Virus record (IMG/VR): IMGVR_UViG_3300007533_000026
Coordinates: 1-21,158 of that record
Source of the DNA: a virus
Strand: one strand, 5' to 3'
Length of the DNA stretch: 21,158 bases
The translations under genes were made by a program, and so were the position numbers. Shown here in pieces: positions 2,116 through 21,158 of this stretch (the stretch's first letter is position 1; the number at the start of each line of letters is the position of its first letter). The notes below the pieces were generated by a model. It was not told the origin of the DNA. It saw only the letters and a list, made by a program, of their open reading frames with translations, and did not search any database.

Positions 2116-2152
2116 TTGACAGCCTCCGCGAGATGGCGCAATATTATTGCGC
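2116..2152 (+). promoter_or_regulatory. Promoter-operator copy 1 (lysis unit)
   Basis: TTGACA at 2116-2121 is a perfect sigma-70 type -35 box. A 17-bp perfect palindrome, GCGCAATATTATTGCGC, lies at 2136-2152 (8-bp arms round one central base). With a 17-base spacer the -10 would be CAATAT (2139-2144); TATTAT at 2142-2147 is a better hexamer but sits 20 bases away. In the other two copies the palindrome is three bases closer to TTGACA, so this copy may be weaker or need an activator. The palindrome covers the -10, as expected for a dimeric regulator site. Promoter activity and regulator are inferred. Confidence 0.65.
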
Positions 2153-2170
2153 GCAACAATCTTGCGGAGG
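2123..2170 (+). repeat. Long inverted repeat spanning promoter copy 1
   Basis: CCTCCGCGAGAT (2123-2134) pairs with ATCTTGCGGAGG (2159-2170): 11 of 12 positions are Watson-Crick and the twelfth is G-U in RNA. The right arm contains the Shine-Dalgarno-like GGAGG of the mini-ORF at 2176. The left arm lies inside the promoter spacer, so it exists only in transcripts reading through from the terminase genes, not in those started at this promoter. Confidence 0.5.
2151..2167 (+). promoter_or_regulatory. Second, degenerate palindrome of copy 1
   Basis: GCGCAACAATCTTGCGG has the same GCGCAA-N5-TTGCGC form as the main palindrome, with 11 of 12 arm bases matching. It starts exactly 15 bases after the first and overlaps it by two bases. 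The same 15-base offset recurs at the portal promoter. It would lie around or just after the transcription start, a typical place for a second operator. Confidence 0.45.
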
Positions 2171-2175
2171 CGATC

Positions 2176-2205
2176 ATGTCATGCGATGGCGGAACGGTTT
2201 TGTAA
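2176..2205 (+). CDS. Possible 9-codon leader peptide
   Basis: ATG at 2176 opens a nine-codon frame (MSCDGGTVL) ending in TAA at 2203-2205. It is preceded by GCGGAGG at 2164-2170, one of the better Shine-Dalgarno matches in the window, with a five-base gap. The stop falls at the foot of the first of two tandem hairpins, and the muramidase gene follows. The layout resembles a translated leader controlling downstream hairpins, but nine codons can occur by chance and no amino acid run indicates a sensed substrate. This is a hypothesis from layout only. Confidence 0.3.
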   Translation: MSCDGGTVL

Positions 2206-2232
2206 TACGTGCGACTGCCTCCCCGCACGTAT
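2205..2232 (+). other. Leader hairpin A
   Basis: ATACGTGCG (2205-2213) and CGCACGTAT (2224-2232) form a perfect 9-bp stem with a 10-base loop. No T-run follows, so it is not a classic intrinsic terminator. It sits between the terminase and lysis units directly after the mini-ORF stop. Confidence 0.55.
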
Positions 2233-2233
2233 A

Positions 2234-2272
2234 GGCCGCCGGTAGAGCCTACCCCACAGGCTCCCGGCGGCC
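2234..2272 (+). terminator. Leader hairpin B, very stable; terminator or processing site
   Basis: GGCCGCCGG (2234-2242) pairs perfectly with CCGGCGGCC (2264-2272). Inside it, after a two-base TA bulge, GAGCCT (2245-2250) pairs with AGGCTC (2258-2263), leaving a seven-base loop. That makes 15 base pairs, mostly G-C. There is no T-tract after it, so it could be a U-less terminator, an RNase III site or a stability element for the lysis mRNA. The muramidase Shine-Dalgarno (AGAGG, 2281-2285) begins nine bases later and stays outside the stem. Confidence 0.5.
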
Positions 2273-2291
2273 ACCAATATAGAGGTTAGCT

Positions 2292-3170
2292 ATGAAGACG
2301 AGCGTCTCAGTGTTCTGTCACCAGGTCCTCCGCTACGAGGGCACGCGCTACACGGATGGCATCCACCCGTACGATCCGGGAGGTCCGACCAAGTATGGCA
2401 TCACGCTCGCGACGGCGCGCCGGTTCTGGAAGTCCGACGCCACCGCCATGGATGTGAAGAACATGCCGCTCCATGTCGCGCTGCGGATTTACGTGAAGCG
2501 CTACTGGAACGCGGTCAGGGGTGACGATCTTCCCGCCGGCCCCGACTTCACCACGGGCGACTACGCGATCAACTCCGGTCCCGGCCGCGCGAGCCGAGTG
2601 CTTCAGGCGGTTGTAGGTGTGCGCCGCGATGGCGTGATCGGCAAGGAGACGCTGGCTGCGGTCGGCGCGCGCGATCCCGATCAGGTTATCGATGCGATCT
2701 GCGACGAGCGCCTGGCCTTCATGAAGGGTCTCCGCATCTGGCATACCTACGGGCGCGGCTGGACCCGGCGCGTCGAGGATGTGCGCAAGACCGCACATAA
2801 CCTCGCGACGCAGGCCAAGAACAAGCCGCCGCATCAGACCGTGGCCGAGGCCGGTGCCATCGTGTCGGCGCAGCATGTCGATGTTCCGAAGCCCGAGGAT
2901 CAGCACAAGCATCTGCCGGCTGCGGTTGTGCCGCCGCCGAAGAAGCTGAAGAACACGATCCATGCTGCCACTGCAACCGCGAGCGCGTCGAGCGGCTATG
3001 AGTGGTGGGGCTGGATACAGCAGCATGAGATGCTCGCGGTCGGTGTTGCCGCGGGCGTTATCTTGCTCCTGTGGCAGGTCGTCCACATGATCAACGTCGC
3101 CCATGCAGTTAAGTCCGTGACGCCACATCCCGATGTGCGCGTCGTGCCCCCGAAGGAGAAGTCGTCATGA
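2292..3170 (+). CDS. GH108-type muramidase endolysin with C-terminal membrane segment
   Basis: Likely cleaves the peptidoglycan glycan strand at lysis. Residues 13-37 carry the GH108 signature: LRYEG with the probable catalytic Glu16, then DPGGPTKYGIT. Residues about 86-125 (DYAINSGPGRASRVLQAV followed by GVIGKETLAAV) match the peptidoglycan-binding half usually fused to GH108. After a Pro/Ala-rich linker (about 175-235) comes a hydrophobic span, roughly 247-267 (AVGVAAGVILLLWQVVHMI), flanked by WW and a basic tail, which is probably membrane-spanning. GH108 endolysins are normally about 170-200 aa and soluble, so the 292-aa anchored form is unusual. No N-terminal signal is seen. AGAGG precedes ATG by six bases. 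The stop overlaps the next start (ATGA). Confidence 0.8.
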   Translation: MKTSVSVFCHQVLRYEGTRYTDGIHPYDPGGPTKYGITLATARRFWKSDATAMDVKNMPLHVALRIYVKRYWNAVRGDDLPAGPDFTTGDYAINSGPGRASRVLQAVVGVRRDGVIGKETLAAVGARDPDQVIDAICDERLAFMKGLRIWHTYGRGWTRRVEDVRKTAHNLATQAKNKPPHQTVAEAGAIVSAQHVDVPKPEDQHKHLPAAVVPPPKKLKNTIHAATATASASSGYEWWGWIQQHEMLAVGVAAGVILLLWQVVHMINVAHAVKSVTPHPDVRVVPPKEKSS

Positions 3171-3562
3171 ATGCCGTGCTCATCATCCTGATTGCCGCGA
3201 CTGCAATCACAACCTACATCAACTTCGTGCGGCCGGTGCTGAAGCGCACCGCGACGTTCAGCGAACTCTACACCGCGGAGGGCGACGTATTCCGCGCGGT
3301 GAAGAAGAAGTTCGCCGGCCTGAAGCAGCGGCTCGCGACCATCGCGATTGCCGGCGCCTCGTTCGTCGTCGCAGCCTATGACAGCATCCAGCCCTACTTC
3401 GTGCAGTCTGGTATCCAGCTCCAGAACATCCACTCGCTGGCTGCCAAGGTCCCTGCGCAGGCTTGGCCCTTCATCCTGGGCGGCAGCTCGCTGCTCCTGA
3501 TGTATCTGCGCAAGCTCGCGGACGACCGCAACGCGGTGCCGCCGAGCGACCCCGGAGCCTGA
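3167..3562 (+). CDS. Small membrane protein, holin candidate
   Basis: 131 aa, starting in the ATGA overlap with the muramidase stop, so translation is probably coupled. Hydrophobic stretches lie at residues 2-21, 57-72 and 100-115, separated by basic amphipathic segments (VFRAVKKKFAGLKQRL). Size, several membrane spans and position right after an endolysin fit a holin or lysis accessory protein. No family signature was recognised, so the role is inferred from context. It could also be an antiholin acting with the next gene. Confidence 0.55.
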   Translation: MNAVLIILIAATAITTYINFVRPVLKRTATFSELYTAEGDVFRAVKKKFAGLKQRLATIAIAGASFVVAAYDSIQPYFVQSGIQLQNIHSLAAKVPAQAWPFILGGSSLLLMYLRKLADDRNAVPPSDPGA

Positions 3563-3564
3563 TC

Positions 3565-3996
3565 ATGGGCAGCATCCTGGGCGGCTTCCTGACTGGCGGA
3601 CCTGTAGGCGCGATCCTCGGGTTCGCTAAGTCGTTGCTGAGCCCGCTTGAGCACATCTTCAACAAGATCGAGACCACGAAGGTTCAGCTCGCCCAGGCCG
3701 ACAATGAAGACGAGCGTATCCGGCTGACGGCCAAGCTAGGCGCCTTGCAGACCAAGGCCCAGATGCTCGCTACCGAGAGCCGCTACACCAGGATGAACGT
3801 CTACATCCGGTCGGCCGCAGCCTCTGGCCCAATCTTCCTGGTGACGAAGATCATGGTCTGGGACAAGGCGCTCGGGCAGTGGACGCACGGGCATACCGAT
3901 GCGCTGTCGTCGCATCAGTGGTACATCATCTACATGGTCTACGGGCTCTACTTCCTGCACGAGATCGCCGGGACCTGGAACAAGAAGGCGGCTTGA
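3565..3996 (+). CDS. Membrane protein resembling 3-TM holins
   Basis: 143 aa. The frame is open further upstream, but ATG 3565 has GGAG at 3554-3557 and follows the preceding stop by two bases, so it is the likely start. Residues 3-27 are Gly-rich and hydrophobic, about 32-72 form a charged probable coiled coil (ETTKVQLAQADNEDERIRL), and 82-98 and 119-133 are probable membrane spans. The pattern of coiled coil, RxxR-type boundary, then two spans with a WDKALGQ turn resembles the holins described for gene transfer agents and related phages (3-TM holin family); this is from memory and uncertain. Its last codon region overlaps the next promoter element: TTGACA at 3993-3998 includes the TGA stop. 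Confidence 0.55.
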   Translation: MGSILGGFLTGGPVGAILGFAKSLLSPLEHIFNKIETTKVQLAQADNEDERIRLTAKLGALQTKAQMLATESRYTRMNVYIRSAAASGPIFLVTKIMVWDKALGQWTHGHTDALSSHQWYIIYMVYGLYFLHEIAGTWNKKAA

Positions 3997-4026
3997 CAGC
4001 CGCGGGGCCGCGCAATATTCTTGCGC
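3993..4026 (+). promoter_or_regulatory. Promoter-operator copy 2 (portal unit)
   Basis: TTGACA at 3993-3998 is followed after 17 bases by TATTCT (4016-4021). The -10 is embedded in GCGCAATATTCTTGCGC (4010-4026), an inverted repeat with 6-bp arms and a five-base centre. The layout matches copies 1 and 3. It sits in the 48-base gap before a 67-aa gene and the portal gene. The TTGACA overlaps the stop codon of the preceding gene. Confidence 0.7.
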
Positions 4027-4041
4027 GAAAGAAAGCTGCGC
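4025..4041 (+). promoter_or_regulatory. Second, degenerate palindrome of copy 2
   Basis: GCGAAAGAAAGCTGCGC matches GCGCAA-N5-TTGCGC at 10 of 12 arm positions. It starts 15 bases after the main palindrome with a two-base overlap, the same geometry as at copy 1. It would cover the first transcribed bases, ahead of ATG 4045. Confidence 0.35.
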
Positions 4042-4044
4042 ACG

Positions 4045-4248
4045 ATGCCCGCGATGAGCACCAAGAACATGATGATCAGCCCCGCTGCCTACGACCTGGG
4101 CATCGGGCAGGGCGACGCGCTCGCTCAGCAGGTCAAGGCGCATGTCGACGATATCAAGAAGAAGAAGCAGAACCAGCAGCAGATGCGGCAGCATAGCCAG
4201 GCTGTTATGGACTTGATGCACCCGACTTTCGGAGCGAACAATGGCTGA
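4045..4248 (+). CDS. Small protein preceding portal, unknown function
   Basis: 67 aa from ATG 4045; ATG 4054 is an alternative start (MSTKNMM). An upstream TTG at 4021 lies inside the operator palindrome and is unlikely to be used. No clear Shine-Dalgarno is visible, only purine-rich GAAAGAAAG. The product is polar, with a run DDIKKKKQNQQQMRQHSQ that is probably helical, and no membrane span. It ends NNG and overlaps the portal start by eight bases. Small genes upstream of the portal occur in T7-like phages (gp7.3 position), but I see no sequence likeness and assign no function. Confidence 0.55.
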   Translation: MPAMSTKNMMISPAAYDLGIGQGDALAQQVKAHVDDIKKKKQNQQQMRQHSQAVMDLMHPTFGANNG

Positions 4249-5986
4249 TCTGTCCGGCTACAACATTCTCCAGTACGTTCCGTCGCTTCAGGACAAGCGG
4301 GCGCAGGAAATCGTAATGGATACGATGATCGAGTTCCGTGAGGCGCAGACCTGGCGCGCGACGACCGCTGCGCAGTGGGAAGAGATCGCGTCGTTGATCC
4401 TGCCGAATTATCGCAACACCTTCTTCTTCGGCAACTACAACTTCCCCGGCCAGAAGAAGACACAGCTCCAGCTCGACAGCAATGGCCAGCTCGCGCTGCA
4501 TCGCTTCACCGCGATCCTCGACAGCTTGCTGACGCCGCGCAATATGTTCTGGCATGGGCTGGAGGCTGAGAAGGACTACCTGATGAAGGATCGCGCGGTG
4601 CGCGTCTACTATGAGCAGGCGGTCAAGCGGCTGTTCAAGGAGCGATACAAGTCGACCGCCAACTTCACGTCGCAGAACCAGCAGGTATGGCAGATGCTCG
4701 GCGCCTTCGGCACCGGCAGCATCTTCGTCGATGCTCTGTTCAGCGAGACCGGAGAGCGCGGTCTCCGCTACAAGGCGCTGCCGCCGGGGCAGCTCTACAT
4801 CAAGGAAAATCATCAGGGCCAGGTCGACAGTTTCATCCGCTGGTTCCGAATGACTGCGCGCCAGGCGAAGCAGATGTTCCCGGAGAGCTTCCCGGCTGTG
4901 CTTCAGGCTGCTCTCGACCGGAAGTCCCAGACCCCATTCAACTTCCTCCACCGCGTCTGCCCGCGGAGCGACTACCAGCCGAACAACCGCGGCCGCCGCG
5001 GCAAGCCGTGGGCTAGCTATTACATCTGCATCGAGAGCGAGACGTTGCTGCGCGAGGGCGGCTACAACACCTTCCCGCTGCCGTGCTCGCGCTATGAGCA
5101 GGCGCCCGACGAAGTGTACGGTCGCTCGCCTGCGATGATGGTGCTGCCGGCGCTCAAGACCCTGAATGCACAGAAGGGCATCTTCCTGAAGCAGGGACAT
5201 CGAGCGAGCGATCCGGTCCTCCTCACCGCGGACGATGGCCTCATGGACGTGAACCGTACGCCGGGCGCCGTCAACCGCGGCGGCTGGTCGATGGACGGCC
5301 ATGCACTCGTTGGCGTGCTGCCGACCGGCAACATCGCCATCAACGAGAAGATGATGGACGAGGAGAAGTCGCTGATCGCGGACGTGTTCCTCGTCACCCT
5401 CTTCCAGATCATGACCGAGACGCCGCAGATGACCGCGACCGAGGTCATCGAGCGCACCAACGAGAAGGGCATCCTGCTCGCTCCGACCGTTGGCCGGCAG
5501 CAGTCCGAATACCTCGGGCCGCTGATCGACCGTGAGCTGGATGTGCTATCACAGCTTCGGCTGCTGCCCGAGATGCCTGGCTTGCTGCGTGAAGCCAAGG
5601 GTCACTACAGTACTGTCTACACGAGCCCGATCTCGCGTGCCATGCGCGCGCAGGAAGCCGCCGGCTTCATCCGTACGGTCGAGACCGTCAAGGAGCTGGT
5701 GAACATCACGGGCGATCCGTCGCTTCTCGATCCGTTCAACTTCGACGTTGCCGTTCCCGCCATCGCGGACATTCAGGCGGTCCCGGCGAGCTGGATGTCG
5801 ACCGACGGCGAAGTCCTGACGAAGCGTCAGAACCGCGCCAAGATGCAGCAGCAGCAGGCTGCGATCCAGGCGATGCCGGCGCAGGCCGCAATGTTGAAGG
5901 CACAGGCCACGGTGCAGAAGAATGAGCCCGGCGTTGCGCCGGGTGCGAACCAGGGGCTTGGAGGCCCGCTGAAGGGCGCAGCTTAA
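4241..5986 (+). CDS. Portal (head-to-tail connector), T7 gp8 type
   Basis: 581 aa, close to the size of podovirus connectors. The dodecameric portal forms the vertex through which DNA enters and leaves and onto which the tail is built. Recognisable blocks are QWEEIASLILPNYRN (45-59), LDSLLTPRNMFWHGL (93-107), GAFGTGSIFVD (154-164), SPAMMVLPALKTLNAQKG (296-313) and the wing/crown hallmark MTATEVIERTNEKGILLAP (397-415) followed by RQQSEYLGPLIDREL (419-433). The C-terminus from about 530 is Gln/Ala-rich and probably helical (MQQQQAAIQAM), matching the barrel and tail region. The start ATG lies inside the preceding reading frame, suggesting translational coupling. Confidence 0.93.
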   Translation: MADLSGYNILQYVPSLQDKRAQEIVMDTMIEFREAQTWRATTAAQWEEIASLILPNYRNTFFFGNYNFPGQKKTQLQLDSNGQLALHRFTAILDSLLTPRNMFWHGLEAEKDYLMKDRAVRVYYEQAVKRLFKERYKSTANFTSQNQQVWQMLGAFGTGSIFVDALFSETGERGLRYKALPPGQLYIKENHQGQVDSFIRWFRMTARQAKQMFPESFPAVLQAALDRKSQTPFNFLHRVCPRSDYQPNNRGRRGKPWASYYICIESETLLREGGYNTFPLPCSRYEQAPDEVYGRSPAMMVLPALKTLNAQKGIFLKQGHRASDPVLLTADDGLMDVNRTPGAVNRGGWSMDGHALVGVLPTGNIAINEKMMDEEKSLIADVFLVTLFQIMTETPQMTATEVIERTNEKGILLAPTVGRQQSEYLGPLIDRELDVLSQLRLLPEMPGLLREAKGHYSTVYTSPISRAMRAQEAAGFIRTVETVKELVNITGDPSLLDPFNFDVAVPAIADIQAVPASWMSTDGEVLTKRQNRAKMQQQQAAIQAMPAQAAMLKAQATVQKNEPGVAPGANQGLGGPLKGAA

Positions 5987-5998
5987 CGGAGGCAGAGG

Positions 5999-6301
5999 AT
6001 GAAGATCACCAGGACGATGTATGATCGAACTATGTCGTTCTTGAGGGACAGAAAGGTCGGATACCAGTTGTTCTTCAAGCAGCCCGCCGGGCAGTTTATC
6101 TTGCAGGACTTGCTCAAGTTCTCGCATTGGATTGATGGGCCGGTCGGGCGAACTAACGAGGAGACGTGGCGGCTTATTGGCCGGCAGGATGTGATCCGTC
6201 GCATCCAGCAGCACACCAACCTCACGGTCGACCAGTTGTTCACCCTCTACAACGGTCAGATCACCGATCTCATAGAGGGCAAGGAAGAGAACAATGGCTG
6301 A
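5999..6301 (+). CDS. Bbp19-like small structural protein (putative)
   Basis: 100 aa with a good Shine-Dalgarno (GGAGG 5988-5992). The pattern FFKQPAGQFILQDLLKFSHW (25-44), then ETWRLIGRQDVIRRIQQH (55-72), resembles the small Bbp19-type proteins of Bordetella phage BPP-1 relatives (F..P.G..VL.DL ... G.R.VV..I), which lie between portal and capsid genes. In those phages the protein is annotated as structural, with no firm function. It ends NNG, and its last eight bases overlap the scaffold start. Family assignment is from remembered pattern, hence moderate. Confidence 0.6.
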   Translation: MKITRTMYDRTMSFLRDRKVGYQLFFKQPAGQFILQDLLKFSHWIDGPVGRTNEETWRLIGRQDVIRRIQQHTNLTVDQLFTLYNGQITDLIEGKEENNG

Positions 6302-7211
6302 AGAAACTGGAGAAGGTACTGGCGGCGCCCCTGCTGGCGGTGATGCTGCGGCGGCTGCCGCGGCTGCTGCGGCTGCGGCGGCGGCAGGCGCCCCCGGTGC
6401 GGGAGGCGTCTGGTATCAGGGCAAGGTCGATGCGGAGATGCTCGGCCACATGCAGAACATGGGCTTGCACGACAAGCCGGCCGAAGACGTGGCCCTCGCC
6501 GCGTTGAAGGCTCATCGCGAAGCGCAGAAGATGATCGGTGTCCCCGCCGACCGCCTGCTGAAGCTGCCGACCAAGTCGGCGGCCGAAGCTCCCGACGAGT
6601 GGGCTCCGATCTTCCAGCGGCTCGGCGCGCCGAAGGATGCGGCCGAGTACAAGTTCGACGGCATCCAGTTTAAGGATGGCTCGGACCTGGAGGAGGGCTT
6701 CGTCGACTTCGCTCGCAAGACCGCGTCGAAGTTGCACATGGCGGCGGGCGACGCGCGCGAGTTCGTGTCCGACCTCGTCAAGTACATGGAGGGCGCCGAG
6801 GAAAGCGAGACTGCCGAAAGCACCGCCGCCCTGTCGACTGCCAAGGCTCGCCTCGCTTCCAACTGGGGTGACCACTTCGATGCCAACAAGTTCGTCGCCT
6901 CGAAGGCGGCGGAAGCGTTCGGCCTCACGGCGCAGGAGATCGCGGCTCTCGAAGGTCTGGTCGGCTACGACCGGATCATGGAAGGGTTCCGCAAGTTCGG
7001 TACCGAGATGGGCGAGGACATCTTCGTGAAGGGCGCCGGCCCGAGCGGTGGTGTCATGACCAAGCAGCAGGCCGAAGCCAAGAAGGCCGAGCTGATGGCC
7101 GATCCCGAGTGGACAAAGCGTTACCAGGGCGGCGGCAAGAAGGAGCTGAACGAGATGATGGCGCTCACGCACATCATCGTCGGCTCCGGGGCGTCGCAGG
7201 TCACGGTGTAA
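6294..7211 (+). CDS. Capsid scaffolding/assembly protein
   Basis: 305 aa, acidic and highly helical, placed between portal and major capsid as in T7-like phages (gp9 position). The motif block fits podovirus scaffolds: a VWYQGKVD start, DAEMLGHMQNMGLHDKPAED, then LKAHREAQKMIGVPADRLLK, an LP(T)K anchor, WAPIFQRLGAPKDAAEYKF, and the C-terminal LMADPEWTKRYQGG. This helper is expected to line the prohead interior and leave on maturation. The N-terminus is a low-complexity Gly/Ala segment with 14 alanines in a row (18-31). The start overlaps the upstream gene in the same GAACAATGGCTGA junction seen at the portal. Confidence 0.85.
   Translation: MAEETGEGTGGAPAGGDAAAAAAAAAAAAAAGAPGAGGVWYQGKVDAEMLGHMQNMGLHDKPAEDVALAALKAHREAQKMIGVPADRLLKLPTKSAAEAPDEWAPIFQRLGAPKDAAEYKFDGIQFKDGSDLEEGFVDFARKTASKLHMAAGDAREFVSDLVKYMEGAEESETAESTAALSTAKARLASNWGDHFDANKFVASKAAEAFGLTAQEIAALEGLVGYDRIMEGFRKFGTEMGEDIFVKGAGPSGGVMTKQQAEAKKAELMADPEWTKRYQGGGKKELNEMMALTHIIVGSGASQVTV
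6345..6386 (+). repeat. GCN tract encoding 14 alanines
   Basis: Fourteen consecutive GCN codons (GCT, GCG, GCC, GCA mixed) encode A18-A31 of the scaffold. Mixed codons argue that the amino acid run, rather than simple replication slippage, is kept, though the tract could still vary in length between relatives. Confidence 0.9.
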
Positions 7212-7219
7212 CCACAACC

Positions 7220-7241
7220 GGGCGGGGCTTCGGCCCCGTCC
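7220..7241 (+). terminator. UUCG-loop hairpin after scaffold gene
   Basis: GGGCGGGGC (7220-7228), loop TTCG, GCCCCGTCC (7233-7241): nine base pairs, one of them G-U, closed by the very stable UUCG tetraloop. It starts nine bases after the scaffold stop and ends before the Shine-Dalgarno of the next gene. No T-run follows, so it could be a leaky terminator or a 3'-end protector. Confidence 0.5.
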
Positions 7242-7259
7242 ACCACTGGAGTAGGAACG

Positions 7260-7457
7260 ATGGCTAAGTCAAGCGCATTGGGGCGGGCAGCGAAGAAGAT
7301 CAAGCATCCGGGCGTCGAACAGCAGCGCGCCAAGGAGCACGGTATCTCAACGCACGAGCAGCTCGTGCGCGACAGTCACAGCTCGAATAAGACCTTGCGG
7401 GCGCGAGGAAACCTCGGCCTGGCGCTGACGAAGAGCGCGAAGCGGCGCTCGAAATAA
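7260..7457 (+). CDS. Small basic protein between scaffold and capsid, unknown
   Basis: 65 aa, rich in Lys and Arg from end to end (MAKSSALGRAAKKIKHPG at the start, LTKSAKRRSK at the end), with no membrane segment. GGAG and AGGAA lie 5-9 bases before ATG 7260. The charge suggests nucleic acid or acidic-partner binding, perhaps the acidic scaffold or packaged DNA, but this is a guess. It sits between a hairpin upstream and the capsid promoter-like element downstream, so it ends the portal-scaffold unit. Confidence 0.65.
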   Translation: MAKSSALGRAAKKIKHPGVEQQRAKEHGISTHEQLVRDSHSSNKTLRARGNLGLALTKSAKRRSK

Positions 7458-7472
7458 TCTTGCGCGGGGGTG

Positions 7473-7506
7473 TTGACACCCCTCCCAGAGCGCAATAATA
7501 TTGCGC
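7473..7506 (+). promoter_or_regulatory. Promoter-operator copy 3 (capsid unit)
   Basis: TTGACA (7473-7478), a 17-base spacer and TAATAT (7496-7501) make the best -35/-10 pair of the three copies. The -10 lies in GCGCAATAATATTGCGC (7490-7506), a perfect palindrome with 8-bp arms that is the exact reverse complement of copy 1. It precedes the major capsid gene, the most highly needed product. A degenerate half-site TTGCGC also occurs just upstream at 7460-7465. Confidence 0.75.
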
Positions 7507-7617
7507 CAAAGGTAAGACCTCGCATAACCCCCGCGGCGCGAGGCGGATGATCGGCCCCCTGACAGGACAAGGCCAGCAAGCAGTTGGTTTTGAAACTGGA
7601 CACAACAGGAGAGTGCC
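7507..7617 (+). promoter_or_regulatory. Major capsid mRNA leader (5' UTR)
   Basis: About 110 bases without a credible gene separate promoter copy 3 from the capsid start. CCTCGC (7518-7523) and GCGAGG (7538-7543) can pair as a 6-bp stem near the 5' end of the expected transcript, a common mRNA-stabilising arrangement. The leader ends with the strong Shine-Dalgarno AGGAGAG at 7607-7613. Confidence 0.45.
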
Positions 7618-8553
7618 ATGTCCGGCTCGTACGATCAGGGTCTTATCCCCGTCTTCACCACGCAGTATTCCACCAACCTGGAATTGCTGCTCCAGCAGAA
7701 GGGCTCGCTGCTTCGTGGCAAGGTCGCGGAGGGTATGCACGTTGGCAAGATGGCTTCGCCCATCCAGCAGGTCGCCCCCGTGCGTATGCAGAAGCCCGCC
7801 GGCCGCTTCGCCCCCAAGAACACTTCCGGTTCGCCGGACTTCGTTCGTCGGTGGGTGTTTCCGACCCCCGGTGATGTCGATCAGCTCATCGACAGCTTCG
7901 ACGAGTTGCAGACCATCATCGACCCGAAGAGCGCCTACACCCAGAACGCCGCGAACGCGGTCGGTCGTGGGTGGGACGACGAAATCCTCGCCGCGACCAC
8001 GCGCGTTGCGTACACCGGCCAGGACGCCGCCTCTCTCGCGCAGGAAGCCTTCGACACGTCGAAGTTCCAGGTCGCCGTGAACTTCGGCGCCTCGGGCAAT
8101 GTCGGTCTTACGGTCGCCAAGCTGCTCGAAGCGAAGCGCATCTTCCGCCACTACCACAACGATCTCGACACCGAGGAAATTACCTTCATCGGCGGCTCCA
8201 AGCAGGAGAATGACCTGCTCAAGCAGTCGCAGGTCGTGAGCACCGAGTACAATGACCGCCCGGTTCTGGTCGATGGCAAGCTGACCCGCTTCCTTGGTTT
8301 CAACCTGGTCTTCATGGAGCGCGTCCCGCAGACCACCGCCAGCTCCGTCCGCGGCTGCATCGCCTTCGTGAAGTCGGGCATGTACCTCGGCATGTGGCGG
8401 GATATCACCAACCGCGTGTCGATCCGTAACGATCTGACCGGCGAGCCCTGGGACCTCTACACCCAGGTCATGTACGGGGCGACCCGCACGCAGCCGGGCA
8501 AGGTCATCCAGATTTTGTGCGCCGATACGACCGGCGCGGACGTCAACCCGTAA
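7618..8553 (+). CDS. Major capsid protein
   Basis: 311 aa forming the icosahedral shell. The block SPIQQVAPVRMQKPAGRFAP (47-66), RRWVFPTPGDVDQLIDSFDE (77-96), then DPKSAYTQNAANAVGRGWDD (102-121) is typical of a widespread phage capsid family (Phage_capsid_2 type, HK97 fold expected). The C-terminal half has the expected alternation of strands, with RFLGFNLVFMERVP (224-237) and a late GKVIQILCAD strand. It starts at ATG 7618 after AGGAGAG. Position after the scaffold, and its own strongest promoter-like element, agree with the role. Confidence 0.88.
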   Translation: MSGSYDQGLIPVFTTQYSTNLELLLQQKGSLLRGKVAEGMHVGKMASPIQQVAPVRMQKPAGRFAPKNTSGSPDFVRRWVFPTPGDVDQLIDSFDELQTIIDPKSAYTQNAANAVGRGWDDEILAATTRVAYTGQDAASLAQEAFDTSKFQVAVNFGASGNVGLTVAKLLEAKRIFRHYHNDLDTEEITFIGGSKQENDLLKQSQVVSTEYNDRPVLVDGKLTRFLGFNLVFMERVPQTTASSVRGCIAFVKSGMYLGMWRDITNRVSIRNDLTGEPWDLYTQVMYGATRTQPGKVIQILCADTTGADVNP

Positions 8554-16122: not shown

Positions 16123-16437
16123 ATGGCTGACCGGACGATCTCGCTGTCCACCTTGGCCGATAATAACTCCTGCCGGCCGAGCCGGGACGCCTTCAAGCGG
16201 CTCTATGGGGAGGGTCCGCTGCCGGCGACGCTCGACCGCTTCCTGGCGGGCGCCCAGGACTTCGACTGGGTCTACGGTGCTAGGCATATTCTGACGGAGA
16301 AGCAGTACTCCCACTTCAGAAACCTCATGGTCAACAGCTTCCGCGGCCTCCAGAGGGTTCACGATCCCGACCGAAAAAAGCGCAATCGGGCCATGGCATC
16401 CGCCTTCTATAAGGCGTATAATAGCCCCACGGAGTAA
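16123..16437 (+). CDS. Small protein between nozzle and internal proteins, unknown
   Basis: 104 aa from ATG 16123; the frame is open upstream but inside the nozzle gene, and this ATG follows that stop by one base with AGGA at 16111-16114. Helical and basic, with DFDWVYGARHILTEKQYSHF (46-65) followed by RGLQRVHDPDRKKRNRAMAS. No membrane span or known family. T7 has no direct counterpart in this position apart from gp13, with which I see no likeness. It could be a minor virion or assembly protein. Confidence 0.65.
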   Translation: MADRTISLSTLADNNSCRPSRDAFKRLYGEGPLPATLDRFLAGAQDFDWVYGARHILTEKQYSHFRNLMVNSFRGLQRVHDPDRKKRNRAMASAFYKAYNSPTE

Positions 16438-19152: not shown

Positions 19153-21158
19153 TGGCTGGTCCTCTGTCGCCGCCGGAAGGCTTCGAACCCCCGGCGCCGG
19201 TCGCCGCTGCCACCCAGGAAGGTATGAAGCCGCCGGCCGGCTTCTTGCCGCCTGAGCCGGCTCCGGTGCCGCCTGGGCAGCCCAAGGCGTTCAATGCCCG
19301 TCTGGCCGATGGGAAGGCCCTGACTGACGCCATGGCGAGCCCGGACGCGCCGGCTGGAGCCCCGCGGGCCGGTGGCGGCCTGAACAGCCTGACGGCCCAG
19401 GACGGCAGCTCCTGGGGCTCCAGGGCGGCCAACGCCGTCAAGGCGGTCCATGACGCGGTCGGCGCCGGCAAGATGTCGTCCGAATGGGCGGCGGCTGCCA
19501 CCCGCGAGGGCGCGGCTGCCCGTGCGCAGGTAGGCAAGGGCATCACCGAGATCGGGCAGGGAATGAGCGCGACCGGCGTGGGCGACCTGTTCTGGGGCGC
19601 CGCTGCGGCAGTGTGGGCTCCTTTCGGGGCGCTCGGGGACGTTGCCGGGCAGGAAGCCACGAAGGCCACTGGGAACCCAGATTTCGGCGCCAAGGTCAAC
19701 ATCCTGGCCCAGGGCATGATGGGCGTGCCCGAGAGCGGCGAGGCCGCGCTGGCGCTGCGTCACCTGAGCCGGGCACCCGACATCGGGCCGGGCGTGGTGA
19801 CCAAGGAGGGCGACTTCGCTCGCCTGGTTCACGATCCTGCCACCAACGAGGTTCACGCCCAGATCGTCGGCCGCGCTCCCACACCGGGAACATTCAAGCA
19901 GGCCGGCAAGGATGTTGCGCGGCTCGCTGGCAAGGAAGGTGATCTGGAAGCCGAGGCCAAGGCGCAGCAGCATCTCCAGAACGCTTGGACGCTGGAAGGC
20001 ATCCACCCGAACGAAGCCATCGAGCGTGCCAGCCAGAGCGCTGCCATCGCTCATGACCTGTCGTCGGCACACGCGCCGGCCGTTCCTATTCCCATGACGC
20101 CCACGCCCGACTTCATTAAGAACGCGGACGACACTTTCAACCGGATCAAGACGCGGTCGCAGGCGCGCGATAGCTTCTGGCTCCAGTGGTCGAATGACCT
20201 GCCCGAGGGCCTGCGTTCCGATCCGGCGATGAAGGAGCGGTTCCTGCGCTACATGGAAGGCGATCCGACGCACGGCATGACGCCTGCGGACATGAAGGTC
20301 TACAAGGATGTCGTCGAGCCCATGCGAGCGCAGCAGGCCGAGCTGTACGAGTGGCTGTCGAAGACCGATCTCCCGCGGCTGTTCAAGGATACCGAGGGCC
20401 GCGAGTTCGAAATGGAGTTCGACCCCGAGTACGCCCACAAGATGCGCAAGGGCTACACGCCTGGCGTCGATCAGTTCACGGGCGAGGCCGGTGACGCCGC
20501 CGATCCCATCTTGGCCGGACGGGCGCCGGGAATGCTCAACACGCATCCCTCCTCACTTGAGCACGCCAGCTATTGGACGCTGCGCGATCAGGACGGCAAT
20601 CGTCGCTTGGTGCGGATGACGGATGGCGGCAAGAACCTCACCATGGTCGACAAGAAGAAGCCGTGGGCTGTCGAGCTGAAGAACGACAAGGAAGTGCCGG
20701 TCAATAACGTCGCGCATCCCGAGGAGCGGAAGTGGGCCAAGGGTGACACGGTCAAGGACAAGGAAGGCAACACCTGGGAGCTGACGAACGCCTGGCATAG
20801 CGAGGTCGAGAGCCTGACGCCTGTCCGCTACTATCATGACCCGATGTTGTCGCTGGTGAACAGCATCCGCGAGATGCAGACCGCGAAGGAAGCGATCTAT
20901 TCGATCCAGCAGCTCAAGGATACGCCCGAGTTCGGCGCGTATGCTCGGCCGCGATCCTTGCCGGCGCCGGACGACTGGATCACGCCCGACATGCCGTTCT
21001 TCGAAGGCTACAAGATGCACCCGAAGCTGGCTGCGGTGATCGACAACTTCTACCGCAAGCCCATGACCGACCCGTATGCGGCAGTCGCCTCCAAGGTGAA
21101 CCGCGCTGCCGTGCGCTCGCTCTTCTTGACGCCGGTCCCGCATCTGTTCAACGAGACC
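19152..21158 (+). CDS. Large internal virion/polyvalent protein, 3' partial
   Basis: Open to the last base of the window (669 codons, no stop), starting in a TAATG overlap with the ejection protein. The N-terminus is Pro-rich with PPEGFEPP and PPAGFLPPEP repeats, then Ala-rich helices with one hydrophobic stretch (DLFWGAAAAVWAPFGALGDV, 145-164). Later parts are mixed and soluble. The end FYRKPMTDPYAAVASKVNRA, VRSLFLTPVPHLFN resembles the helical repeat found in very large polyvalent phage proteins that are packaged and ejected. By order it is the gp16-like member of the internal core. No catalytic motif was found in the visible part. More of it should lie downstream. Confidence 0.8.
   Translation, partial: MAGPLSPPEGFEPPAPVAAATQEGMKPPAGFLPPEPAPVPPGQPKAFNARLADGKALTDAMASPDAPAGAPRAGGGLNSLTAQDGSSWGSRAANAVKAVHDAVGAGKMSSEWAAAATREGAAARAQVGKGITEIGQGMSATGVGDLFWGAAAAVWAPFGALGDVAGQEATKATGNPDFGAKVNILAQGMMGVPESGEAALALRHLSRAPDIGPGVVTKEGDFARLVHDPATNEVHAQIVGRAPTPGTFKQAGKDVARLAGKEGDLEAEAKAQQHLQNAWTLEGIHPNEAIERASQSAAIAHDLSSAHAPAVPIPMTPTPDFIKNADDTFNRIKTRSQARDSFWLQWSNDLPEGLRSDPAMKERFLRYMEGDPTHGMTPADMKVYKDVVEPMRAQQAELYEWLSKTDLPRLFKDTEGREFEMEFDPEYAHKMRKGYTPGVDQFTGEAGDAADPILAGRAPGMLNTHPSSLEHASYWTLRDQDGNRRLVRMTDGGKNLTMVDKKKPWAVELKNDKEVPVNNVAHPEERKWAKGDTVKDKEGNTWELTNAWHSEVESLTPVRYYHDPMLSLVNSIREMQTAKEAIYSIQQLKDTPEFGAYARPRSLPAPDDWITPDMPFFEGYKMHPKLAAVIDNFYRKPMTDPYAAVASKVNRAAVRSLFLTPVPHLFNET

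Follow-up and report, generated by a model that had tools for sequence, protein, structure and literature searches.

Three late promoters of a viral genome record carry candidate operators of a host Lrp/AsnC-type regulator

Results

Genes of the window and its relatives

The window, i.e. the whole 21,158-base viral record analysed here, encodes on its plus strand an endolysin (2292–3170; phrog_315, E 1.3e-42), a portal protein or head-tail adaptor (4241–5986; phrog_332, E 1.9e-110) and a major capsid (major head) protein (7618–8553; phrog_3437, E 4.5e-50). A small open reading frame (ORF) on the same strand, 4045–4248, lies between the second of the promoters described below and the portal gene, and a small ORF was found at the same place in relatives. 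The large terminase is of the P22 type with 37–42% identity to known phages, and a search of known phages at the DNA level gave no match to the window. Portals 61–75% identical to that of the window are encoded by 11 viral contigs. An integrase (phrog_1) is present in one relative, G010, therefore the group includes temperate members.

Sigma-70 promoters of the late units

In the preliminary description, three copies of TTGACA followed by the palindrome GCGCAA-N5-TTGCGC had been placed before the lysis, portal and capsid units. Both the copies and their positions were confirmed: TTGACA begins at 2116, 3993 and 7473, the palindromes occupy 2136–2152, 4010–4026 and 7490–7506, and the genes that follow are those of the endolysin (the first long gene past promoter 1, starting at 2292), the portal (4241) and the major head protein (7618). 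Copy 3 is the exact reverse complement of copy 1, as had been described.

The three elements are sigma-70 promoters for three late units of this podovirus, each with TTGACA, a spacer of 17–18 bp and a -10 hexamer matching the consensus at four of six positions; all are on the plus strand. Before the portal gene, the -35 hexamer at 3993–3998 is followed by TATTCT at 4016–4021, and before the capsid gene the -35 at 7473–7478 is followed by TAATAT at 7496–7501. In both cases the promoter scan placed the -10 at the centre of the palindrome with a 17-bp spacer, in agreement with the earlier reading. The lysis copy had been regarded as deliberately mis-spaced, which did not hold. Its -35 at 2116–2121 is paired with AATATT at 2140–2145, within the palindrome, at an 18-bp spacer, and this promoter scores 10/12, equal to those with TATTCT and TAATAT. 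The host type of the promoters was upheld, all three reaching 10/12 in the sigma-70 scan with hexamers 17–18 bp apart. In an independent promoter scan the three sites were joint best, with one other site of equal score (ATGGCA/TATAAT at 16393); promoter-like sites in the window numbered 9, with 3.4 expected. The search for a T7-type RNA polymerase (PF00940) gave no match in six partial records, and the control genomes also gave none.

The exact palindrome occurs three times in the window and nowhere else in it. The arrangement TTGACA-N(8-20)-GCGCAA was observed three times versus 0.03 expected, and none of 100 shuffles reached three. That the three promoters resemble each other by chance or through coding constraint has next to no probability: a single palindrome core does permit chance matches, such as the matrix site inside a gene at 19904 (score 14), but the layout recurs in other phages and this explanation was refuted by conservation.

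Palindromic boxes in the window

A symmetric weight matrix of 17 positions was built from 54 distinct palindromes in viral loci. With a threshold of 10 bits, seven sites were detected in the window versus 1.2 expected, and six of the seven lie at the three promoters; since its training set consisted of perfect palindromes, numbers of weak sites are approximate. Each promoter was found to carry a second, weaker box, absent from the preliminary description. At the lysis promoter, the candidate Lrp-type operator 1a (GCGCAATATTATTGCGC, 2136–2152, score 24.7) is followed by box 1b (GCGCAACAATCTTGCGG, 2151–2167, score 23.0). At the portal promoter, the candidate operator 2a (GCGCAATATTCTTGCGC, 4010–4026, score 25.5) is followed by the weaker box 2b (GCGAAAGAAAGCTGCGC, 4025–4041, score 13.1). 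At the capsid promoter, box 3a (TCGAAATAATCTTGCGC, 7449–7465, score 18.7) lies upstream of the -35, and the candidate operator 3b (GCGCAATAATATTGCGC, 7490–7506, score 24.7) covers the -10. The suggestion of a dimer-type operator over the -10 was thus supported by the matrix boxes and the promoter scan, as a predicted operator.

There is a 9-codon ORF at 2176; box 1b, reading CGCAACAATCTTGCG plus GAGG, overlaps the leader together with the GGAG that precedes this ORF. The relative L030 has a comparable layout, with GGAG and a start codon after its box. Past the 9-codon ORF, two stable hairpins (TACGTGCG...CGCACGTA and GGCCGCCGG...CCGGCGGCC) lie at 2204–2271 between promoter 1 and the endolysin gene. 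The leader of the lysis unit folds 3.3 standard deviations better than shuffles, and the hairpins are a possible attenuator of the lysis genes.

Boxes in portal relatives

The conservation expected in relatives was seen in those chosen by gene. A portal-unit promoter with a box was detected in L030, L031, L032, L034–L037 and L038/L039. Throughout L030–L037, the box lies directly past a TTGAC-N17-TATAGT or TAATAT promoter (L033 being without a strong box), and in L038 the -10 AATAAT is within the box. The small terminase gene has 1–6 boxes upstream in L030, L031, L032, L037 and L038. L033 (L033/G004) has no strong box anywhere and retains a similar TTGACA promoter before the capsid gene; in the remaining portal relatives the capsid promoter is also kept and a good box is absent. 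The promoter therefore does not require the box; it seems to be the older of the two, with the box a later addition retained chiefly at terminase and portal. In alphaproteobacterial genomes with portal relatives at 40–43% identity, no strong box was found in the flanks seen.

The box GCGCCAGATTGTTGCGC was observed inside a lysozyme-like gene in several relatives (L034 at 3056, L037 at 5827, G002 at 24286, G003 at 5211), which could be due to coding constraint.

An element GGCCCCCTG-N3-5-GGAyAAGGCC lies at 7552–7575 of the window, past the capsid promoter and before the start of the capsid gene. It is nearly invariant in 11 phages (the window, L030, L031, L033, L039, L040, L056, L097, L100, L141 and L142), whereas the rest of the leader varies. 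The element resembles a nested hairpin whose outer stem is GGCC/GGCC, and no Rfam family was found for it in the six sources searched. It possibly serves translational control of the capsid.

Boxes in other phages

Further phages were chosen by motif. The scan of viral contigs with TTGACA plus palindrome resulted in 26 matches, near the estimated chance level, and was not used as evidence. Most matches of the single-palindrome scan were probably chance as well, and only contigs bearing additional copies were taken further; such copies numbered about 53, versus 2 in reversed controls. The double-box search of annotated phages gave no real match.

In the multi-box contigs, boxes lie at the head of the packaging operon, where about half of the clusters examined were located (a rough figure). 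Counted over distinct phages, boxes stand before the small terminase gene in about 12, before the portal gene in about 7 and before the capsid gene in about 5. Within the operon of the window's group, a box was never seen before the scaffold gene and hardly ever before the large terminase gene. Boxes were found before the small terminase in L060, L075, L097, L100, L131, L157 and L272; before the capsid in L056, L100, L141 and L142; and past the large terminase in L131 and L157. The design of the window, with the -10 at the box centre and a 17-bp spacer, is shared by L100 (capsid) and L157, and in L056, L142 and L131 the box fills the -35/-10 spacer. Boxes also precede the packaging genes of phages with unrelated large terminases, L084 (phrog_15) and L270/L275 (phrog_9). 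The proposed coordination of late units was supported by these positions, since the boxes mark small terminase, portal or capsid starts. In a 45-kb viral contig, L058, about 20 boxes form two long arrays (864–1228 and 4013–4307), the most seen.

The tandem arrays in non-coding DNA and a possible stem of 5–6 bp would also fit a role as a hairpin in RNA, or as a mobile or REP-like repeat in DNA, instead of as a protein operator. This is very improbable: transcripts of the window would start inside or past the box, leaving no full hairpin, the 4017–4060 leader folds no better than shuffles, and no Rfam match was obtained. Many promoters have a single copy, and the copies vary at their centre, which is unlike a mobile repeat.

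The same palindrome at a host Lrp/AsnC gene

Bacterial and archaeal genomes totalling 257 Gb contained 18 places with two close boxes. Five of the 18 (L160, L163, L164, L167 and L171, the last from Oceanibaculum) lie directly upstream of one gene, that of an alphaproteobacterial Lrp/AsnC regulator; three of these loci are close relatives, making about three lineages in effect. In the flanks that were read, greA and carB adjoin this gene; exact boxes occur nowhere else in the five genomes. The regulator of L163 was confirmed to have the PF01037 and HTH domains. In an Enhydrobacter metagenome-assembled genome (MAG), a box lies about 45 bp upstream of the same Lrp gene, and a prophage of this MAG carries a box array before ParB/methyltransferase, small terminase and large terminase genes.

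A broader test of the association covered 77 orthologs, taken from alphaproteobacterial genomes drawn evenly, with 370–400 bases of upstream sequence. Matrix scores of at least 10 were reached in 25/77 ortholog upstreams compared to 4/180 flank windows (Fisher p 3e-11) and 2/13 AsnC paralogs; with a score of at least 12 the values were 22/77, 3/180 and 0/13, respectively. A strong box is absent in about two thirds of the host orthologs, and exact palindromes upstream of them are rare, degenerate sites being revealed only by the matrix. The host sites are mostly 40–140 bp before the start, with the consensus GYAAyAWTnTTGCGC. In the promoters of L199, L259, L265 and L298, the right half TTGCGC is located, by eye, 16–18 bases before a -10-like hexamer. 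This is a plausible -35 position, therefore the geometry is as expected for autorepression.

The boxes are 15-bp palindromes with an AA-N-AWT-N-TT centre, and each position of this core has its counterpart in the consensus of E. coli Lrp, YAGHAWATTWTDCTR, as cited in PMC5554404. The phage boxes are the same element as that upstream of the host regulator gene. In the open-licence papers searched, no account of Lrp at late promoters of phages, nor of a GCGCAA box in Alphaproteobacteria, was found.

In the preliminary description the late genes were assigned to a single phage regulator. This was not borne out, because the palindrome recurs upstream of the host Lrp/AsnC gene and the AsnC ligand domain PF01037 was detected in 0/30 box-bearing or related viral records (fragments, some longer than 40 kb), with 11/14 controls positive. 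The absence of the domain in these fragments favours a host protein. A phage-encoded repressor or activator unrelated to Lrp could still read the palindrome and coordinate the late promoters: the boxes cluster in arrays in phage genomes and mark late units, and the known contigs are incomplete. We consider it unlikely, because the same element stands upstream of the Lrp/AsnC gene in bacteria and because the box is carried by phages with three unrelated large terminases, which are not easily served by one inherited regulator. Moreover, neither a shared phage regulator nor a candidate gene for a cognate phage repressor was identified among the fragmentary records.

Discussion

Proposed control of the late promoters

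The arrangement of the window probably represents late promoters of the host RNA polymerase, each overlapped by the operator of a host-encoded Lrp/AsnC repressor. We infer that an Lrp-type protein binds the boxes, that the window's own host has such a protein, and that its binding represses the late promoters. The three promoters would be read by the host RNA polymerase, and a host Lrp/AsnC-type dimer or oligomer on the -10, helped by the second box, would block the polymerase. The lysis, portal and capsid units would then stay low until the Lrp-type protein leaves. Its release could conjecturally be caused by an amino-acid ligand, by a falling Lrp level, or by dilution and titration over many replicated phage copies. 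On the basis of these sequence comparisons, a host nutritional regulator probably controls the timing of particle making.

Repression is favoured because a box that covers the -10, fills the spacer or lies just past the -10 would block the polymerase. Proteins of the Lrp family both activate and repress. It is conceivable, though clearly less probable than repression, that the host Lrp-type protein binds the boxes and activates late transcription or bends the DNA. The arrays located 40–440 bp before the small terminase gene in several phages could serve activation, and Lrp can activate from such an upstream position. In contrast, the boxes of the window cover the -10, those of its relatives fill the spacer or lie just past the -10, and in several host lrp promoters the right half-box coincides with a plausible -35, which is the geometry of autorepression.

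Comparison with known systems

The boxes are similar to the E. coli and Vibrio Lrp operators in being 15-bp palindromes with a centre of the A-W-ATT-W-T type. Negative autoregulation of lrp has been reported in Vibrio (PMC5554404), and a box at the regulator's own gene is a further likeness to that system. The flanks differ, GCGCAA/TTGCGC here and YAGH/DCTR in E. coli and Vibrio, and the sites described here belong to late promoters of phages. Between the alphaproteobacterial protein and E. coli Lrp the relationship is only distant, the former scoring 119 bits with the NCBIfam Lrp model, whose cut-off is 233.

Host regulators act on phage promoters in other systems. Spo0A boxes occur in promoters of the Bacillus phage phi29, which, as predicted here, are bound and restrained by a global host regulator that responds to nutritional state; the protein family and the host are different, and the promoters are early there and late here. 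LexA controls some phage promoters, which is comparable to the host repressor operator over a phage promoter predicted for the window, whereas the signal in that case is SOS and the operator differs. Mycobacteriophages carry stoperators and start-associated sequences which, like the boxes, are short intergenic sites in many copies, some adjoining start codons. Unlike the boxes, these are linked to repressors that the phages encode, or to a single phage cluster; the box described here matches the promoter of a host gene and crosses unrelated phages.

Implications

We tentatively suggest, as a rather doubtful extension, that unrelated phages of Alphaproteobacteria have repeatedly gained host Lrp operators at packaging, portal, capsid and lysis starts, and that at least six sites per genome act as a replication counter. 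The late genes would open once replicated phage DNA titrates the host protein, or when the amino-acid supply signals a productive cell. If a host Lrp-type protein controls these promoters, many environmental phages would tie particle building to a host nutritional regulator, with no late activator of their own. The box would offer a practical way of testing sequences for phages of Alphaproteobacteria, and is a predicted DNA target for a widely conserved and little studied Lrp-type protein.

A variant box, TTGGAATAATATTTCAA, was observed within the -35/-10 spacer of the G010 capsid promoter (L039, 9375–9391). Boxes of the GAAA type upstream of some other Lrp orthologs, e.g. GTGAAATTTTCTTTCGT of L258, are similar to it, and the phage and host box types may vary together.
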